Source: an uncultured Hyphomicrobiaceae bacterium (GTDB lineage: Bacteria; Pseudomonadota; Alphaproteobacteria; Rhizobiales; CAMYJA01). From it: a stretch of 64,000 nt of DNA. The position numbers and the translations under genes are program-made. Each line of letters begins with the position of its first letter. The first letter of the stretch is position 1. Positions 1,111 to 34,224 of this stretch are shown piece by piece. Where the stretch lies: positions 1 through 64,000 of the forward strand of contig CAMYJA010000009.1 in NCBI GenBank assembly GCA_947258705.1, read 5' to 3'. The notes under the pieces were generated by a model. That model saw only the letters and a program-made list of their open reading frames with translations, was not told the DNA's origin and did not search any database.

Positions 1111-3357
1111 TCAAGGCGCCGGATGACGGGTCCAGGGGCGCCGTCCGCGATGGGCCTCGACCGTTTCAATGCGAAATTTATCACCATCCATATAGACGGC
1201 ATGTACGCCGTCGCGCCGGGTCATATCCGGGTCGATGAGAAGCCTGGGGCTTTCGCAGACCCGTTTGACGGGAAATCGGACGATGACGATATCGGCCATT
1301 GCGCAATCGTCGTTCAGGCCCGAGGGATGGCGGGTCAGGGCAAGCGTCAAACCCTTGATGCGCGTCACGCAGCCCCGCCTATCGCAGCGAAAATTCAGGC
1401 CCTTGCCGGCCTCTTTTGGCGCTCTCGCATCGCCATCATTTTCCAGCCAGCGGGCAAAGACATAACTTCTGGCGGTGCCGCGCGTTGCGCTTAACCTCAT
1501 GAAACCTGGCTTTTGCGCGTCGTTTCTTACGGCCACTGTGCGGGCATTGTCCCCCACCAGAATATCGGGGCGCGGTCCCGTTTGCGCCAAGGCAAGACCG
1601 GCCGCGATGCCGGTCAATCCCAGATAGCGCCAGCGCTGACGCCAGACCATCAGCCAGATCGCTCCCAATACAACGCAGAGAAGTGACGATATCGGAATCT
1701 GCGGTACGTAGAGCACGGCGCCGGGCAGGCTCGCGATGCGCGCCGCGATGGCCGCGATGATTTCGATGCTCCAGCTCATGAGCGTCAGGGGCAGCGCTTC
1801 CAGACCGAAAGGCATGGCCATCAGGCTCATTAACGCCATGGGCATGGTAACGAGGGTAAAGACCGGCATGGCCAGCATGTTGGCAAGCAGGCTGTAACCC
1901 GCTTCCTTGTTGAAGTGAAACGCCGCAAAAGGCGCGATCGCGGCGCCGGCGATGATTGTCGTCAAGGCTATGCCGATGAGAAATTTGACCGACCTGCCCA
2001 TTCGGCCGTACCGCCAGCCCCGATCATGCGTCCGGCTCTGCCGCTCATTCCAGGTCTCGTAAAAGGCGATAAGGGCGGTGACGGCGGCAAAGGACATCTG
2101 AAAACTTATATTGAGCAGGCTTTCCGGCCAGAGGATGAGTATGAAAAGCGCGGCGATGGCGACATTGCGGAGCGAAAGCGCAGGGCGGTCGAGAAGGACG
2201 GAAAGATATAACAGCATGACCATGAAGAACGCCCGCTGGGTTGCGGGCGACGCCCCTGACAGGGCGAGATAGAAAGCAGCGCCCAGCATGGCGACTATTG
2301 CGCTCCATTTCTTGATCGGCCGGGTCAGGGCCAGGGTCGGCGACAGGGCCAACCCCGCCCGCACCAGCCAGAACACCGCGCCCGACATGATCGCCATGTG
2401 CAGGCCGGAAATGGCGAGGATGTGGGCCAGACCGGAATGTCTGAGGTCGGTTTTCACGTTTTCCGGTATGGCGCCCCGCGCACCGGTCAGAAGTGCGGTT
2501 GTGATCGCAGCGGTCGTGCCGTTGAGGTGCGCGCCAATGCGGTGGGCCACATCTGCGCGTAATTTCTCAACCGCAACGATCAGATCGAGGCCCACTCCAC
2601 GCGTGCGTTCTGTAGGCATGATCTTTGGCGGTTGTCTCGTGTAGCCGACAGCGCCGAGCCCCTGATACCAAGCGCGGCGGGCAAAATCATATCCGCCCGG
2701 CTCCGACGGTCCGGGAGGCGGCCGCAATATTGCAGACACGCTTAAATAATCGCCTACCGAGATGCGATTGCGTTCGCTTTTGACATAGAGGCGGATGCGT
2801 TTAGGCAGGTGGTCATTTTCAAGTTTCTCCACCCGGACCGGACGCATGGTGATGCGGTGACCGACAGTCGGCCGGTCTGCCCTATTTTCCCGTAATGCCG
2901 GTTCCGCCCCGCTTGACGATTTCTTGCGGCGCGCGGCTTTTCCCGACGAAGCGCGTTCTTCGATGCGCTCGACCCAGCCCTCAATCTCGACAGGCCCGGT
3001 GGTTGCCATGATTTTCGGCGCCCGGACCCATTCGGTGCGGATTTTTGCCGATACAAAACCAGTGCCCGCGGCGACAAGCGCACTGAGAACAAGGACCGAC
3101 GCCAGGGTGCGCGGAGCGAAAAATATCATGCCGGTCAGGAAGACGATCAGGGTAGCGAGACTGTAAAGGCCGGGTTCGAACGGCAGGGTGAAATATATGC
3201 CGATGCCCAGCCCGATAAAAACCGGCAGCCAGTAGAACAGGCGCCCCTGCTCAAGATCAAGGAGGCGCAGAATTGCCTTTGGGCTGGAAATGCCGGGCCA
3301 AACCCTCTCGGCGCCTTGGCGGGCGCGCCATTTTACTCCTCGTTCGAGGGTGGCCAT
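1111..3357 (-). CDS. comEC: ComEC/Rec2-family competence membrane protein
   Basis: ComEC forms the inner-membrane channel for single-stranded DNA uptake in transformable bacteria. The 748-residue protein starts with hydrophobic segments and a soluble N-terminal domain (DUF4131-like, about 100-250). The competence core follows (about 270-560), with the characteristic segment [20 protein letters not shown] and several membrane helices. The C-terminal 150 residues show no HxHxDH metal motif, so the metallo-beta-lactamase-like nuclease domain of Bacillus ComEC seems absent. It is divergent from gltX with a 136-bp spacer. Whether this organism is transformable cannot be judged from this gene alone. 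Confidence 0.9.
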
Positions 3358-6808: not shown

Positions 6809-8665
6809 TTGATATCGAAATTTGTACAGAGTAACCGCAGCGGTTTGGCGCTGCGTTTGATAAAGGGCTTGGCCATTGTCTTGACAATGATGTTGCTGAC
6901 TGCGCTTCGCCCCCAGACGGTCCAGGCACAATATGCAAGCCCGTATTATTATTATCAGAACGGCTACAAGGTTAAGACATACAGAAAGAAACGCACGCGT
7001 TACCGCAAAGCCCGCCGCTACAGAGCCAAGCGGCGTTACAAGAGGAAAACACGCGCCAGGAAACCACACATTGCCGCCAAGCCCTGGCCGAGCAGTCAGC
7101 AGGTCAAGGGGCCGGTTCAGATCATCGTCTCTCTTCCCGATCAGAGAATGTCGCTCTACAAGGGCGGGCAGAAGATTGCCAGCACGCGCGTATCGACCGG
7201 GAAATCGGGGCACAGGACACCAGCCGGCATTTTCAGCATTATCCAGAAAAACCGCCGTCACTTCTCCAATCTCTATAATAACGCTCCCATGCCCTACATG
7301 CAGCGTATTACGTGGTCCGGCGTTGCCCTGCATGCCGGCGTCGTGCCGAATTACCCGGCATCGCATGGATGCATAAGACTGCCGAGAGGATTTGCCGGAA
7401 AATTATTCGGTTACACCAATATGGGCGCACATGTTGTGGTCGCCGACAGCATGCTTCAGCCAAAGGATGTGGCACACGCTACCCTGTTCCAGCCCATTCC
7501 GGCAGCGGATCAGGTGGGGCCGCGCATTTCTCTCGATAAACGCGCATCCCTCGGCACGGGAACCAGCGGGCAAAGCACTCCGGCGATGATCTCGAATGCC
7601 GCGAGGCGCAATGTGCAGCTCACCAGCTCAACCCCTTCAACCGTAGAGGGATCGGCCATTGTCTCCTCCGCCCAGGCGGCGACAGATGTGGTATTGAAGA
7701 AGCTTGCCAGTCTCGATGACGCCGTGGCGGTGCAACCGGCAGCGACGACACAAAACCAGTTGCGACGCGTACTTGTTGAAAAAATGCGTGAACGCCAATG
7801 GCCGAAAGACGTGCAGAAATTTTTGAAACGCCTTGGACGGTATAAAGGAAGAATCGACGGTGATGTGAGGGGCGGGACTATCAGGGCGATCAAGAACTTC
7901 CAATACGGACTTGGCAAGCGGGCGACCGGCAGGATCGACACTGATCTGATCATCGCTCTTCACCGCATATCCGGAGAAGTGATCGACCTCAGTACCGATA
8001 ATGTTAAATTGCCACGATCGGACAAGCCATTGCGTATTTTAATCACACGCAAGAAATCGCTCGAGAAGGCGACAACCGCACAAACCCTGCTCAACGAGCT
8101 TGGTTATGATACCGGCGGTATTGACGGCAATCTGGGTAGAATGTCGCGCCAGGCGATCAGTGATTTTCAGTTTGAAAGGCGGATGCCGGTAACGGGCGCG
8201 CTTTCAGACCGGTTGCTCGACGAACTTTACAAGGCGAGCGGCAAGCGCAAGCCCGGCGAATGGCATCTTTATGTACGGCAGGAATTCAACGATTTGTTCG
8301 ATGTGCCTGTCGAGGTGCGCGATGGGGCCATGCCTTTGGGTACGCATCTGTTCACGGCCATGCATTTTGACAAGGATTCCACCAAAACACGCTGGACATC
8401 GCTGACGATGCGGGCGCGGGCCGGAAAGCCGCAGAAACGCTGCAAATGGAGCCGCAAAAGACGCCGCAATATCTGCAGGACAATTCCGGCACCGCTGGTT
8501 TCCTCCATATCGGCAACCAAGGCGCTGGACCGTATTGAAATTTCGAGCGATGTCAGGGAAGTCGTCTCCGAACTTCTGACACCAGGTTCTTCGATGGTCG
8601 TTACGGATAGAGGGATCAGCAATGAAACGGGCAAAGGAACCGATTTTATCGTCCTTACCCGTTGA
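6809..8665 (+). CDS. L,D-transpeptidase (YkuD) with peptidoglycan-binding repeats
   Basis: A periplasmic enzyme predicted to make 3-3 peptidoglycan crosslinks or to attach proteins to the wall. The 618 residues show a signal peptide ending near residue 35 and a very basic, Tyr-rich segment (about 40-95). The YkuD domain (about 105-240) has the His of ALHAG and catalytic Cys188 in ASHGCIRLP. Two PG_binding_1 modules follow (about 315-390 and 420-490), then a C-terminal domain of about 130 residues common in rhizobial homologues. The start is TTG, 9 bases after GGAG. An ATG at 6801 opens a 3-codon frame whose TGA overlaps the TTG. The gene ends at a strong bidirectional terminator. Confidence 0.93.
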   Translation: MISKFVQSNRSGLALRLIKGLAIVLTMMLLTALRPQTVQAQYASPYYYYQNGYKVKTYRKKRTRYRKARRYRAKRRYKRKTRARKPHIAAKPWPSSQQVKGPVQIIVSLPDQRMSLYKGGQKIASTRVSTGKSGHRTPAGIFSIIQKNRRHFSNLYNNAPMPYMQRITWSGVALHAGVVPNYPASHGCIRLPRGFAGKLFGYTNMGAHVVVADSMLQPKDVAHATLFQPIPAADQVGPRISLDKRASLGTGTSGQSTPAMISNAARRNVQLTSSTPSTVEGSAIVSSAQAATDVVLKKLASLDDAVAVQPAATTQNQLRRVLVEKMRERQWPKDVQKFLKRLGRYKGRIDGDVRGGTIRAIKNFQYGLGKRATGRIDTDLIIALHRISGEVIDLSTDNVKLPRSDKPLRILITRKKSLEKATTAQTLLNELGYDTGGIDGNLGRMSRQAISDFQFERRMPVTGALSDRLLDELYKASGKRKPGEWHLYVRQEFNDLFDVPVEVRDGAMPLGTHLFTAMHFDKDSTKTRWTSLTMRARAGKPQKRCKWSRKRRRNICRTIPAPLVSSISATKALDRIEISSDVREVVSELLTPGSSMVVTDRGISNETGKGTDFIVLTR

Positions 8666-8688
8666 GCCTGCAAACGGAATTTGATCTT

Positions 8689-8718
8689 AAAAATGGCGGG
8701 GCCGACCCCGCCATTTTT
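8689..8718. terminator. Bidirectional intrinsic terminator
   Basis: AAAAATGGCGGGG (8689-8701), loop CCGA, CCCCGCCATTTTT (8706-8718): a perfect 13-bp inverted repeat with A- and T-tracts on both flanks, between the convergent L,D-transpeptidase gene and lpxB. It overlaps the lpxB stop codon and should serve both strands. Confidence 0.93.
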
Positions 8719-9895
8719 ATTGCCCGCCGATATATTCGAGAACAATTTCGGCGGCGCGCCTGCTTGGCGTGCCGTGATCGAGCACAAGTTTTTTCTGCAC
8801 CTCCCGCAGGGCGGCAAGCTGATCTTGTCTGACGGCGTCGTCGGTCAGGAGATCGAAAAGGCTGCTGCTCAGGTTTTCCGCAGTACATTCATCCTGCATG
8901 AATTCGGGCACCGCATTTCTGCCGATGACAAGATTCGGCAACACGAATGAAGGCACTTTGACAAGCCAGGCCAGTCGTGCGGCCAATGGATCGACGCGGT
9001 AGGCTACGACCATCGGCGTTCCTGCCGCGGCAAGTTCGAGCGTGACCGTGCCGGACGCCGCGAGGGCCGCTTCGCTCAGGCGGAATGCGGCAAATTTGTC
9101 CTCTTCGTCCATGAGGATATGAACCTTCATCGGCCAATCCCCTGTTGCCGCCTCGATGAGATGCCGGACATGGGATAATGTCGGAATAAGGATATTCACG
9201 GGCCCATGTCGTTTTGACAGGCGCTGCAAGGCAGCGCCGAAAATATCGATCAGCCTGCTAATCTCGCTCGGACGGCTTCCCGGCAATATTGCCAGCGTTG
9301 GCTGGGTCATATCGAGGTTCAGCCGCGACCGGAGCGGCGCTGTGTCGATTGCGCCGATGGATTCGATCTTTTCGGCAAGGGGATGGCCGACATAGCTGCA
9401 TTTCGGGCCGCCAAGTCCGGCGTGAACCTCGGGTTCAAACGGCAGGAGCGCCAGCACATGGTCGATATAACGCGCCATTTTCCTGGCCCGGCCCGACCGC
9501 CATGCCCATACGCTTGGTGAGACGTAATTCAGGATCGGCACGCCTGGCAGGCGCTTTTTCAGGCGTTTTGCAATCGGATGCGTGAATTCAGGACTGTCGA
9601 TAATGACAATGACATCGGGATTTGCGGCCACGCAGGCGTCGACCGTCTGATAGACGCGCCTGACGAGTTGCGGCAGGCGTTTTAAAATAGCGACCGGTCC
9701 CATAACGGCGATCTCGTCGAGGGGAAAGAGCGAATTCAGACCTTCTCTTTCCATCAATGCGCCACCTACGCCCGAGAAGCGGAGCGGTGCGGCATGCAAT
9801 TGGCGTAATGAGGCCATGAGACCGCCCCCCAGATTGTCGCCGGAATGTTCTCCGGCAATCAGGACGATATGCGTTTCCAGGCCGGTTTCGCTCAT
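8717..9895 (-). CDS. lpxB: Lipid-A-disaccharide synthase
   Basis: A GT19 glycosyltransferase that joins UDP-2,3-diacylglucosamine to lipid X to form the lipid A disaccharide at the inner membrane. The 392-residue product begins MSETGLETHIVLIAGEHSGD, the usual family N-terminus, so the start is set at 9895 and not at an in-frame codon 135 bp upstream inside lpxI. Other family features include PSVWAWRSGRARKMA and LPGSRPSEISRL. It is the last gene of the lpxD-fabZ-lpxA-lpxI-lpxB run, 28 bp after lpxI. Confidence 0.97.
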   Translation of the reverse strand: MSETGLETHIVLIAGEHSGDNLGGGLMASLRQLHAAPLRFSGVGGALMEREGLNSLFPLDEIAVMGPVAILKRLPQLVRRVYQTVDACVAANPDVIVIIDSPEFTHPIAKRLKKRLPGVPILNYVSPSVWAWRSGRARKMARYIDHVLALLPFEPEVHAGLGGPKCSYVGHPLAEKIESIGAIDTAPLRSRLNLDMTQPTLAILPGSRPSEISRLIDIFGAALQRLSKRHGPVNILIPTLSHVRHLIEAATGDWPMKVHILMDEEDKFAAFRLSEAALAASGTVTLELAAAGTPMVVAYRVDPLAARLAWLVKVPSFVLPNLVIGRNAVPEFMQDECTAENLSSSLFDLLTDDAVRQDQLAALREVQKKLVLDHGTPSRRAAEIVLEYIGGQ

Positions 9896-29954: not shown

Positions 29955-31301
29955 TCACTGAACGGTCAGGCCATCCCGTATTTTTTCATTTAAATAGGTT
30001 TTGGCTGCCGCAATATCCATTGTCTGCTGTTCTCCGCCTGCGCGCGTTCTTATCTCTACATTCCCGTCCTGCAAGCCGCGTGGACCGACGACGACCTGAT
30101 AAGGTAACCCAATGAGGTCCATGGCCGCAAATTTGGCGCCGGCGCGGTTGTCACTGTCGTCATAGAGAACTTCAATGCCGCTTGACGTCAAGTCCGCATA
30201 AAGTGCTTCACAGGCCGTATCGGTCACGCTGTCCCCGGATTTCAGATTGACCAGCCCAACATGAAAAGGCGCCACGCTCAGCGGCCAGATTATTCCATTT
30301 TCGTCATGAGACGCTTCAATAATGGCGCCGAGGAGACGCGAGACGCCTATTCCATAGGATCCCATTTCAAGTGTGATCAATTTGCCGTCAGGGCCCTGAA
30401 CCCGGCAATTCATGGCCTCAGAGTATTTCTGTCCAAAGTTGAAAATATGGCCAACTTCGATGCCGCGGGCGGAGATGCGCTTCGTTTCGGGCACTTCTTT
30501 TTCAAAACGCGCGGCATCGTGCATTTCCTCGGTCGCCGCGTATTTTGCGGTCCAGGCATTGAAGACCTGTTCGAGATCGCCGTCAAAGTCGGTTTCGATG
30601 TCCGGGGTGTCCATTTCAAGAAGGTCCGCATGACAGAAGACCTCGCTTTCACCGGTATCGGCCAGGATGATGAATTCATGACTGAGCTTGCCGCCAATGG
30701 GTCCGGTATCGGCGGCCATTGGGATCGAGCGCAGGCCCATGCGGGCGAATGTGCGGAGATAGGCGGTGAACATGCGGTAATAGGCGCGGCGCGCATCTTC
30801 AACGGAAAGGTCGAAGGAATAAGCGTCCTTCATGAGAAATTCCCGCCCGCGCATGACACCGAAACGCGGCCGGACTTCATCTCTGAATTTCCATTGGATG
30901 TGATAAAGATTGCGCGGCAAATCGCGGTAGGAACTTACGCCGTCACGGAATATCTGGGTGATCAGTTCTTCATTGGTTGGGCCATAGAGCATATCGCGGC
31001 CGTGACGATCGGTGATGCGCAGCATTTCCTTGCCGTAATCATCGTACCTGCCACTCTCGATCCAGAGGTCGGCGGACTGGATTGTCGGCATGAGCATTTC
31101 AATGGCGCCCGCCCGGTCCTGCTCCTCGCGCACGATCTCGCTGATCTTGCGCAATACACGGTGGCCCGCGGGCAGCCATGAATAGATGCCGGAGCTCGAC
31201 TGCCTGACGAGCCCGGCGCGCAACATCAACTGATGCGAGATAATCTCAGCCTCTTTCGGCATGTCCCGCATAATCGGCATGAAATATTGTGAGAGGCGCA
31301 T
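29955..31301 (-). CDS. proS: Proline-tRNA ligase, short type
   Basis: Charges tRNA-Pro. The 448-residue class II synthetase starts [20 protein letters not shown]. It has motif 2 around [24 protein letters not shown], motif 3 with [17 protein letters not shown], and a C-terminal anticodon-binding domain. It is much shorter than E. coli ProRS (about 570) because the editing insertion between motifs 2 and 3 is missing, the normal alphaproteobacterial form. A trans-acting YbaK-type editing protein may compensate but is not in the window. The frame extends 35 codons upstream without similarity. Confidence 0.97.
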
Positions 31302-31487
31302 GTGTTTTCTGTTTGTCCGATATTGGCGTTCAAACCCGGTCGGCGGGCGTTCGAAAGAAACGCTCGAGAGCAGGCCGTGAATAACTTGTTCGCTGACACC
31401 ATGCAATGCAAGCTTTGGTGGAGGTCAAGCTATATCCCCAAAACCACTGAAATTGTTGAAAAAATATTTGCCGGTGAAAATTAATGC

Positions 31488-31516
31488 TTGCCCCGGGAAC
31501 GCCATCCTTTTATGTG
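31488..31516 (+). promoter_or_regulatory. Candidate promoter of the forward-strand small RNA
   Basis: TTGCCC (31488-31493) and TATGTG (31511-31516) are 17 bp apart; an overlapping TATAAG at 31517-31522 is a better -10 but with longer spacing. It lies just before the structured region that ends in an intrinsic terminator. Confidence 0.35.
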
Positions 31517-31522
31517 TATAAG

Positions 31523-31769
31523 CAGAGTGTCGCACTCTAATAAAATTTGTAAATGGAGCGTCCATGAAAGTACTTGTGCCTGGGGTATCACCCCACCAAG
31601 CAATGGCTCAGGTTTAGGGAGGACAGCAAAGGTGCGATTATTCTGCCGCTCTTCGGGGCGGTGGGCATGACGGCGGGAAAAACGATAATAATTGGGTATT
31701 GCGTAAACTTCCGTCAAGCTGAATAGATCGACTTTCTCTGGCAAGGCCTTGTGCCTTGCTTTTTCTTTT
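31523..31769 (+). ncRNA. Candidate structured small RNA between proS and the DUF1467 gene
   Basis: This forward-strand interval lies in a 478-bp gap in an otherwise all-reverse operon. It has a promoter-like element, a series of potential hairpins and an intrinsic terminator. The hairpins are AGAGTG-TCG-CACTCT at 31524, TGGA-GCG-TCCA at 31553, GGGG-TATCA-CCCC at 31572, and an outer CGATTATT/AATAATTG pairing enclosing a GC-rich stem (31635-31694). No credible protein frame is seen on either strand. The segment TCAGGTTTAGGGAGGACAGC resembles the SRP RNA domain IV signature but differs from its GGAA loop, so I do not call it 4.5S RNA. Family unknown. Confidence 0.42.
31741..31769 (+). terminator. 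Forward-strand intrinsic terminator
   Basis: GCAAGGC, loop CTTGT, GCCTTGC, then TTTTTCTTTT. The T-run is present only for forward transcription, although both neighbouring protein genes run on the reverse strand. This implies a forward transcript ending here. Confidence 0.8.
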
Positions 31770-31779
31770 GTGGAGCGCG

Positions 31780-32049
31780 TTATTGCGCCTGCGGGGGGAA
31801 AGCCGGGATTGTCCGGATGTCGATAATCTGGCTTGCGACCATGGCGTAAAAAATACCGAATACGATAGCGGCGATGATGGTCGTGAGCAGGAACTTCCAT
31901 TTGAGTTGCGGCGTTGCCGGCGCGCTTTCCGGCGTGCCGGGGACGACATCGCCCTCCTCGCCCTGGGTGGAAACCCCAAGCGGAAGCACGGTGAACAGAA
32001 CCAGCCACCAGATGACAAAATATACTGCGAGTGAGAGCGTCAGGCCCAT
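31780..32049 (-). CDS. DUF1467 family membrane protein
   Basis: A small inner-membrane protein of unknown function. The 89-residue product has two predicted membrane helices (about 4-24, LSLAVYFVIWWLVLFTVLPL, and about 57-77, FLLTTIIAAIVFGIFYAMVA) joined by an acidic Pro-rich loop. This matches the DUF1467 family, which in alphaproteobacteria sits beside mce and proS as here. The start at 32049 is the first residue of the family-like sequence. The gene follows mce by 31 bp and is presumably cotranscribed with it. Confidence 0.88.
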   Translation of the reverse strand: MGLTLSLAVYFVIWWLVLFTVLPLGVSTQGEEGDVVPGTPESAPATPQLKWKFLLTTIIAAIVFGIFYAMVASQIIDIRTIPAFPPQAQ

Positions 32050-32080
32050 GGTTTGGTATGTCTCCCGTCGGTTCGATTCA

Positions 32081-32485
32081 TCAGGCCTGTTCCAGCTCGA
32101 CAAGCGTGCCGCAAAAATCCTTGGGGTGAAGGAACAGTACCGGCTTGCCGTGGGCGCCGGTTTTCGGCTCTCCGTCTCCGAGCACGCGCGCGCCGCCGGC
32201 CTTGAGCCTGTCACGGGCCGCGATGATGTCATCGACCTCGTAACAGACATGGTGGATGCCGCCGGCGCTGTTGCGTTCGAGAAAAGCGCTGATCGGCGAA
32301 TTTTCGCCTAATGGCTCCAGGAGTTCGATTTTCGTATTCGGCAGGTTGATGAAAACCGTCGTAACGCCGTGATCGGGCTGAGGCACTTCATCGGTGACCT
32401 CCGCGCCGAGAATATCGCGGTAGACGGCCGTGGCCGCCTTGATGTCGTGTACGGCGATGGCAACGTGATTGAGACGTCCGATCAT
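32081..32485 (-). CDS. mce: Methylmalonyl-CoA epimerase
   Basis: Interconverts (2R)- and (2S)-methylmalonyl-CoA in propionyl-CoA degradation. The 134-residue vicinal-oxygen-chelate protein has the metal-binding residues in LNHVAIAVHDI (His), GGIHHVCYEVDDI (His) and the C-terminal GTLVELEQ (Glu). PKTGAHGKPVLFLHPKDFCG is diagnostic of the family. The mutase and propionyl-CoA carboxylase genes are not in the window. It lies between rnj and the DUF1467 gene in the operon. Confidence 0.96.
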   Translation of the reverse strand: MIGRLNHVAIAVHDIKAATAVYRDILGAEVTDEVPQPDHGVTTVFINLPNTKIELLEPLGENSPISAFLERNSAGGIHHVCYEVDDIIAARDRLKAGGARVLGDGEPKTGAHGKPVLFLHPKDFCGTLVELEQA

Positions 32486-32520
32486 GCGGCTGTACCTTCG
32501 AGTTTACACACTATCATAGA

Positions 32521-34224
32521 TCAGTCTGATATCACTTCCACCAGGACCTTGCATATGGGCTTTTTGCCCCAGGCGCGAAACACCGTGCCACGGGCGGCGC
32601 GTCTCGCGGCCTCGCGAACGGTATCGATGTTTTTCCGCCGCTTTTTAGGAATGCTCAAAACGGCGCCCTCGAGACTGTCGAGGATTTCATCGCGCAGGGG
32701 AACCCCCATGGCGTCAAGTTCCGGCACGCCGTCGAGGATGATCGACGGCTCCGTGTAGAATTCGCCGTGTTCGGTCATGAGCAAAGAGACCACGATGATG
32801 CCGACATAGCTCAGTTTGCGGCGCTCCGTGATGGCCGAGGCATCGGCGCCCAGGAAAAGATGGCCATCGCGGTAAATGCGGCCAGACGGCGCTTCATCGA
32901 TGATTTGCGGCTGGCCCGGCGCCAGCTTGACAATCGAGCCGTTGCGGGCAGAAACGCTTGCCTTGATGCCTTGTTTGGCGGCAAAACGCCGATGTTCCTC
33001 GAGATGACGGGCTTCGCCATGCATGGGAATGATGGCTTCGGGTTTGCACCAGCCATAGAGCTTTTTCAGTTCGCTGCGGCGCGGATGGCCCGTGACATGA
33101 ACAAGCGCTTCCTGGTCGGTGATGATATTGACGCCCAGATCCGCCAGGGCATTCTGAATATATCCGACCGACTTTTCATTGCCCGGTATCGTCCGGGACG
33201 AAAAAATGACGGTGTCGCCGCGCGCCAGATGAATGGACCGGTGCTCGTCATTGGCGATGCGGGCGAGCGCTGCCCGGTATTCGCCCTGACTGCCGGTGCA
33301 GAGGAGCAGGACCTCCTCGCGCGGGAGATAGCCATAATCATCCGGTCCGTAATACTTGAATTTCGCGGGCAGGTGTCCGGTCTCGATGGCGACATCGATC
33401 ACCCGGTTGAGGGCGCGCCCGGCCACCAGCAATCGCCGTCCGGTGGCTTTCGCGGCCAGTCCGATCGACTTGATGCGTGCGACGTTGGAAGCGAATGTCG
33501 TGACCGCGACGCGGCCCTTTGCCTTACCGATGAGTTCGGTCAGCGAGCGGCCTATTTCACCTTCTGTCGGCGAGCTGCCGCCCCTAAGCGCATTGGTTGA
33601 ATCGCAGACCATCGCGTCAATGCCCTCTTCACCGATTTCCCGGAGGCGTTTTTCATCGGTGAGACTGCCGACCACCGGTTCGGAATCGAGTTTCCAGTCA
33701 CCGGTGTGCAGGGCGGTGCCGGCGCTTGTGCGTATGACGAGGGCGTTTGGCTCGGGAATGGAGTGGGTCATGGTGACCAGTTCGACATTGAACGGGCCGA
33801 CATCAAATCGCGATCCTTGCTTGATGATTTTGAGGGGCAGATCGATGTCGTATCCCCATTCGGCGATCTTGGCCTTGAGAAGCCCCGCCGTGAAAGCGGT
33901 GGCATAGACCGGTACGCCCAGGCGGGGCCAAAGGTCCAGGAGGGCGCCGAAATGATCTTCATGGGCATGGCTCAGAATGATGGCGGACAGGTTTTTCCGT
34001 TCTTCCTCGATGAAGCGGATATCGGGCATGATCACATCGACCCCCGGTTCCCGCTCGCCGGGAAAGGTGATGCCGAGATCAACCATCAGCCATTGCCGTC
34101 TGCCGCCCGAATCCAACCCATAGAGATAGAGGTTCATTCCGATTTCGCCGACACCGCCGAGAGGAAGAAACAGCAGCTCGCCGGCATTTTCAGAATTCGG
34201 TTTTTTATTTCCGGTCTTTGCCAT
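32521..34224 (-). CDS. rnj: Ribonuclease J
   Basis: A metallo-beta-lactamase/beta-CASP nuclease with 5'-3' exo- and endoribonuclease activity in RNA maturation and decay. The 567-residue protein has the zinc motif SHAHEDHFGAL, HTGDWKLD, the beta-CASP motifs (for example VHVTGHPRRSELKKLYGW) and PMHGEARHLEEH, followed by a C-terminal domain. Its start is 9 bp after birA, so it is cotranscribed with the end of the complex I operon, as in many rhizobia. Confidence 0.96.
   Translation of the reverse strand: MAKTGNKKPNSENAGELLFLPLGGVGEIGMNLYLYGLDSGGRRQWLMVDLGITFPGEREPGVDVIMPDIRFIEEERKNLSAIILSHAHEDHFGALLDLWPRLGVPVYATAFTAGLLKAKIAEWGYDIDLPLKIIKQGSRFDVGPFNVELVTMTHSIPEPNALVIRTSAGTALHTGDWKLDSEPVVGSLTDEKRLREIGEEGIDAMVCDSTNALRGGSSPTEGEIGRSLTELIGKAKGRVAVTTFASNVARIKSIGLAAKATGRRLLVAGRALNRVIDVAIETGHLPAKFKYYGPDDYGYLPREEVLLLCTGSQGEYRAALARIANDEHRSIHLARGDTVIFSSRTIPGNEKSVGYIQNALADLGVNIITDQEALVHVTGHPRRSELKKLYGWCKPEAIIPMHGEARHLEEHRRFAAKQGIKASVSARNGSIVKLAPGQPQIIDEAPSGRIYRDGHLFLGADASAITERRKLSYVGIIVVSLLMTEHGEFYTEPSIILDGVPELDAMGVPLRDEILDSLEGAVLSIPKKRRKNIDTVREAARRAARGTVFRAWGKKPICKVLVEVISD

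Follow-up and report, generated by a model that had tools for sequence, protein, structure and literature searches.

The window (the whole stretch of DNA analyzed here, 64,000 nucleotides from an uncultured Hyphomicrobiaceae bacterium) contains a gap at 31302-31779 between proS and a DUF1467 gene, and a candidate ar9-like RNA lies on the forward strand inside this gap (Table 1). The initial annotation had singled out a perfect 7-bp stem that exists for forward transcription only, while both flanking genes are reverse, and these parts of it stand: GCAAGGC (31741-31747) pairs with GCCTTGC (31753-31759) and is followed by TTTTTCTTTT (31760-31769), a terminator scan reports the forward strand alone, and both neighbors are encoded on the reverse strand. 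Its reading of the stretch as a forward-strand noncoding RNA is supported by the presence of the same element next to proS in most of the relatives examined; a lack of conservation in the gap of relatives, which had been named as evidence against an RNA, was looked for, and the element was found to be conserved beside proS.

Table 1. Features of the proS-DUF1467 gap, its flanking genes and the MmgR genes of the same genome
Feature	Position	Strand	Basis or remark
proS (prolyl-tRNA synthetase)	29955..31301	-	448 aa, starts at 31301; divergent neighbor; PF00587 on N-terminal part
DUF1467 gene	31780..32049	-	PF07330, E 3.4e-30; stop at 31780; convergent neighbor
ar9-like small RNA (candidate)	31590..31769	+	Stretch matched by the broader covariance model R1
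Closing helix P1, 5' side, GCAAT (putative)	31600..31604	+	Read from sequence and family alignment
Family core ATGGCTCAGGTTTAGGGAGGA, predicted MmgR pairing site	31603..31623	+	Overlaps the 'SRP-like' stretch of the initial annotation
Internal hairpin CCGCTC-TTCG-GGGCGG	31646..31661	+	In minimum-energy fold
Closing helix P1, 3' side, ATTGC (putative)	31698..31702	+	Partner of 31600-31604
Intrinsic terminator, stem plus U-tract	31740..31769	+	Sequence and terminator scan; helix 4 of the family structure
Two tandem MmgR genes (RF00519)	Locus L130 (contig C4, own genome), 1648-1724 and 1907-2006		67.1 and 63.8 bits, cut-off 41

The generic signals around the gap are close to what chance provides. 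Across 30000-33500 we counted 3 terminator-like sites where 3.5 are expected from shuffled sequence and 2 promoter-like sites where 2.1 are expected, so that neither a generic terminator signal nor the promoter-like boxes described by the initial annotation rise above chance level; the sole forward-strand promoter-like site (31662-31689) falls within the RNA itself. The folding energy is mildly low (z -1.59, with 12 of 200 shuffles equally good). Because these scans and the fold are near chance, it is conservation, and not the terminator or the fold alone, that shows the RNA to be real. The likeness of one part to domain IV of the SRP RNA was mistaken: no Rfam match to SRP RNA was found at cut-off in the window, nor at E values up to 10 in 31300-31850, and the stretch concerned is the core of the ar9 family. 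The same scans over the same two ranges returned no match to 6S RNA or tmRNA, and across the window Rfam at its cut-offs finds tRNAs only.

At a lax threshold, the best-scoring Rfam match in the gap is ar9 (RF02343), on the forward strand at 24.3 bits, which is below the cut-off of 45. In a search of 150 genomes from the order to which the window's genome belongs, itself included, the ar9 model matched 73 genomes at E <= 1, 20 of which pass the cut-off, and the window locus was its only match in its own genome. We fetched 30 loci from the 73 genomes with matches; every one lies beside proS in antiparallel orientation, 18 with a recognizable DUF1467 gene in the fetched stretch, and 10 of these 30 likewise score under the Rfam cut-off. 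The small number of genomes that pass, together with the loci beside proS that do not, indicates that the Rfam model is narrow; it misses most orthologs and could be rebuilt from a broader alignment. Our own covariance model, R1, was made from 51 aligned relatives with the window excluded (64 candidate sequences, less 13 near-duplicates or doubtful ones). Over the complete genome (2.77 Mb), the best R1 match is the window RNA, at 34.2 bits and an E value of 1.9e-5 (4.3e-7 within the window alone), and the runner-up scores 20.0 bits (E 0.072). R1 finds matches in at most 136 of the 150 genomes at E <= 0.05, a count that is an upper bound because it includes some places where R1 matches mmgR in antisense (G019, G064 and G093 are examples). 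Apart from the own genome, 3 of 60 relatives showed direct DNA similarity to the 361-base gap, in short matches only; one of these lies beside proS (L002), and the other two had no proS match.

Membership of the window RNA at the ar9 locus is nearly certain; judged from its sequence, it is a diverged ar9-like small RNA (sRNA), orthologous by place and not a match to RF02343. We take the Rfam family ar9 to be SmrC9 of Sinorhizobium meliloti, going by the length of 149, the position at proS and the nomenclature. SmrC9, Sra32 and SmelC289 have been equated (PMC2573895, PMC7143759), a length of 149 nt has been given (PMC2780559), and sra32 is placed in the literature between Y01933 and proS. The window RNA resembles this family in its place beside proS on the opposite strand, in its conserved core, closing helix, internal hairpin and terminator (the stem, at 31741-31759, is of the GCAAGGC/GCCTTGC type usual in the family), and in its similar length. 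It differs in detail, with the core GTTTAGGGAGGA where the family has GTCTTGGGAGGA, a P1 of GCAAU/AUUGC where the family has CGCG/CGCG, and an internal hairpin unlike that of the family.

The core block GTCTTGGGAGGA is invariant or nearly so in 29 aligned ar9 loci (29 of the 30 fetched loci entered the alignment), which were chosen by the Rfam model and not by motif. A scan upstream of proS at 80 named loci from other genomes found many with this block at two changes or fewer, an invariance that is partly selection because these loci were chosen with at most two mismatches. The window core, at 31612-31623, agrees with GTYTNGGGAGGA, which served as the criterion for the family core. In the predicted fold of the window RNA the core is partly paired (31605-31613 and 31621-31624) and P1 is absent from the minimum-energy structure; by eye, the GTAAACT that follows the 3' side of P1 resembles the GACGCGNAACT of the family. 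The true 5' end is probably some 20-40 nt upstream of 31590, before a GGGG-UAUCA-CCCC hairpin; this end is inferred, as are a promoter and helix P1. Counted for the family structure on alignment A2, 89.1% of cells are paired and 15 of 22 pairs have changed on both sides (for the terminator helix, 97.3% of cells and 7 of 8 pairs), compared with 36.7-51.5% paired for slid versions of the structure. RNAalifold on alignment A1 found little covariation; the structure was therefore drawn up manually around the conserved elements, and the A2 counts lean towards it; as alignment and structure are not independent, these counts support the fold and do not prove it.

The proposed partner of this RNA is MmgR (alphaR8; RF00519 'suhB'), which is not a relative of ar9 and differs from it in structure and locus. 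The two tandem MmgR copies in the window's own genome have an inositol-monophosphatase-family gene on one side and an N-formylglutamate amidohydrolase gene on the other. At one mismatch or fewer, the core motif YTYARGTYTNGGGAGGA occurs in three places in 2.77 Mb: in the window (no mismatches) and at two places 259 bases apart on another contig (one mismatch each), each of them antisense to one MmgR copy. MmgR has a conserved single-stranded linker, GUUUCCUCCCUAAACUUGGG, of which the ar9 core is the reverse complement; within 31603-31623 all 21 positions form standard pairs with the genome's own MmgR, the highest value among 68 distinct pairs. The 20-nt core duplex has an energy of -37.1 kcal/mol with either copy, compared with -16.0 +/- 2.8 (best -26.6) for 2,538 background tiles taken from both strands of the window. 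For full-length duplexes, the energies (-80.1 and -83.4; lowest background value -88.7) do not discriminate, because they sum many weak helices, and a match to GGGAGGA alone is cheap, because that part resembles an ordinary ribosome-binding site. Two other candidate partners were rejected, AbcR (ar15) and ar14 being below cut-off or absent in the own genome; the weak ar15 match there is MmgR.

We evaluated this complementarity across genomes by comparing same-genome pairs with shuffled partners. Of 127 genomes examined, 111 have the core beside proS (the other 16 comprise 7 without a core at two mismatches or fewer and 9 without proS in the fetched stretch) and 96 of these entered with an MmgR core (15 lacked one in the data used), leaving 95 after G174 was dropped; the mmgR copy used was the best-scoring among the matches listed. 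Changes on both sides of the duplex that keep the pairing number 46, compared with 23.5 +/- 5.0 for shuffled partners (0 of 2,000 shuffles as high; 95 genomes, 68 distinct pairs), and they are spread over 11 positions compared with 7.5 (30 of 2,000; 68 distinct pairs). At position 3, for example, C-G has become U-A in the own genome as well as in Microvirga (two genomes, an identical third having been merged); at position -2, A-U has become G-C in G080 and G115 and U-A in G177 and G179; and at position -1, A-U has become G-C in G176. Three further measures, each on 69 distinct pairs, agree: ungapped Watson-Crick matches from -9 to +5 average 9.159 in the same genome and 8.640 when shuffled (1 of 5,000 as high), matches from -5 to +4 including G-U average 7.971 and 7.694 (0 of 5,000), and mean duplex energy is -39.95 and -37.52 (0 of 5,000). 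When each of the 26 families is represented by a single genome, the pairing excess is weaker, with a median p of 0.007 for Watson-Crick pairs, 0.047 with G-U, and 0.016 for -5 to +4 with G-U. Sliding the register by -1 also gives an excess, perhaps because of one-base bulges, and slides of -3, -2, +1, +2 and +3 give none; the weaker one-per-family values and the slid-register excess indicate that shared descent explains part of the pairing signal. Core position 5 is mismatched in most relatives (U or C against the U of MmgR). MmgR was found in 139 of the 150 genomes and in 29 of 32 named genomes, and two genomes (G045 and G103) have a good ar9 match and no MmgR match. The co-occurrence of ar9 and MmgR (counts 130, 9; 6, 5) has p 0.0011, or p 0.088 without the reduced-genome family f4, and is suggestive only.

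Taken with published work on related RNAs, these results lead us to propose, with a probability of roughly 70%, that the region encodes a diverged ar9-like sRNA that acts as a sponge of MmgR, a role predicted computationally. The RNA, of about 180-210 nt, would be transcribed away from proS and end at the terminator; its core would pair with both MmgR copies at their single-stranded anti-Shine-Dalgarno linker, probably on Hfq, and so mask the seed with which MmgR binds mRNA, and the repression of transport and carbon-storage genes would thereby be relieved. The analysis itself establishes homology, locus, terminator, complementarity and co-variation; that the RNA is transcribed in this organism, that it binds Hfq and pairs with MmgR in the cell, and that ar9 inactivates MmgR and not the reverse, we infer. 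A precedent is CrfA of Caulobacter crescentus, an Hfq-dependent sponge of the alphaR8 sRNAs SisA-D that was published in 2025. CrfA recognizes the alphaR8 10-mer UUUCCUCCCU by base pairing through a G/A-rich loop, the effect is rescued by compensatory mutations, and the repression of SisA targets is lifted during carbon starvation (PMC12559287). SmrC9 of S. meliloti was recovered with Hfq by co-immunoprecipitation and was assayed in log phase, its phase of highest abundance (PMC2848018); MmgR is Hfq-dependent, accumulates at the entry into stationary phase, limits polyhydroxybutyrate (PHB) and in 2020 had no direct mRNA target on record (PMC7143759). A log-phase peak of SmrC9 and a stationary-phase rise of MmgR might fit an antagonist pair.

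CrfA and ar9 are alike as small RNAs with a G/A-rich element complementary to the same alphaR8 10-mer; CrfA is induced by carbon starvation and is an experimentally proven sponge, whereas that role is a prediction for ar9. To look for homology, R1 was run on three Caulobacter genomes and gave no convincing match: two had none, and the third had one at E 0.009 without the core. A search of two Caulobacter genomes for a CrfA-like element by AGGGAGGAAA returned 12 places, 5 of them antisense mmgR and none ar9-like. The words 'Rhizobiales', 'ar9' and 'proS' are absent from the text of the CrfA paper (PMC12559287). In the open-access papers searched, we found neither ar9 named as an MmgR sponge nor a function assigned to ar9 or SmrC9; the RNA itself is a diverged member of a known family, and its functional link to MmgR is new as far as those papers show.

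Among other explanations, it is possible, and in our judgment unlikely, that ar9 is a conventional trans-acting sRNA with a G-rich core that pairs with CU-rich stretches of mRNA, the match to MmgR being a by-product of the likeness between ribosome-binding and anti-ribosome-binding sequences. The Shine-Dalgarno-like character of GGGAGGA fits such a role, as do the targets fliM and smc01800 predicted for sra32 via its nucleotides 60-95 (PMC2245857); however, the complementarity extends past the Shine-Dalgarno-like part (through AAGUCU or AAGUUU and beyond), it co-varies with the MmgR of the same genome, and the core motif is almost unique in the genome. We give still less credence to a relationship in which the two RNAs pair and ar9 is the one that is regulated or co-degraded, or in which it stabilizes MmgR. 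The pairing evidence is silent on direction, and SisA overexpression also lowers full-length CrfA in Caulobacter; against this, CrfA, the one tested case that we found, nets relief of alphaR8 repression (PMC12559287), and the paired region includes the MmgR linker on which targets depend. That no RNA is made, and that the forward terminator and hairpins arose by chance or are a relic, is very improbable: the near-chance scans and folding energy would allow it, but the stretch is the whole-genome best match to an independent family model, in the usual place and with conserved core and terminator. Least credible is a small peptide gene that uses GGGAGGA as its ribosome-binding site (GTG at 31632, 12 codons; the spacing is plausible in the own genome), because start codons placed 3-11 nt past the core are depleted: 14 of 106 distinct relatives have one, where control positions give 28.1. 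The absence of coding potential asserted by the initial annotation is upheld on these terms, in that small open reading frames are present (60 aa at 31488-31670), yet starts after GGAGGA are rarer in the family than in controls.

Extending the sponge proposal from this RNA to the whole ar9 family, detected in 2007, as a dedicated, co-evolving sponge of MmgR/alphaR8 in Hyphomicrobiales, located beside proS across dozens of families, is somewhat less secure, and we still favor it. If it is true, alphaR8 sRNAs would be widely controlled by anti-sRNAs, CrfA included; an old family repeatedly detected in rhizobia would have its first likely job and be linked to the regulation of uptake systems and of PHB, a storage polymer; and MmgR would gain an RNA partner in rhizobia, a question testable at once in S. 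meliloti.

Several observations were made at other loci. In Rhodovarius lipocyclicus (L089), an mmgR gene (2151-2225, 54.5 bits) lies immediately upstream of proS in the same orientation, occupying the place where Hyphomicrobiales carry ar9 on the opposite strand (1 of 20 loci scanned); the ar9 core that had been tentatively assigned there is this mmgR gene read backwards and was excluded from the pairing tests. ar9 might have descended from antisense transcription of an mmgR copy. In three Caulobacter genomes (L365, L366 and L367), the mmgR linker continues with UUUCCUCCCUAAUGAACU in place of ...CUAGACUUGG, so that these genomes, in which no ar9 was found, lack the part of the linker that matches the ar9 extension; Rhodovarius, likewise without a detected ar9, retains that part. 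Two genomes, a Rhodobiaceae metagenome-assembled genome (L044) and a PS1-clade genome (L049), have very short ar9-like forms in which the core is closely followed by a terminator; these are perhaps minimal sponges, and no clear match to MmgR was found in either genome. Elsewhere in the window, at 8621-8741, A- and T-runs flank a strong hairpin rich in GC, AAAAATGGCGGGG...CCCCGCCATTTTT; it is likely a two-way terminator, and it gives weak matches to the ar9 model on both strands (21.6 and 16.2 bits).
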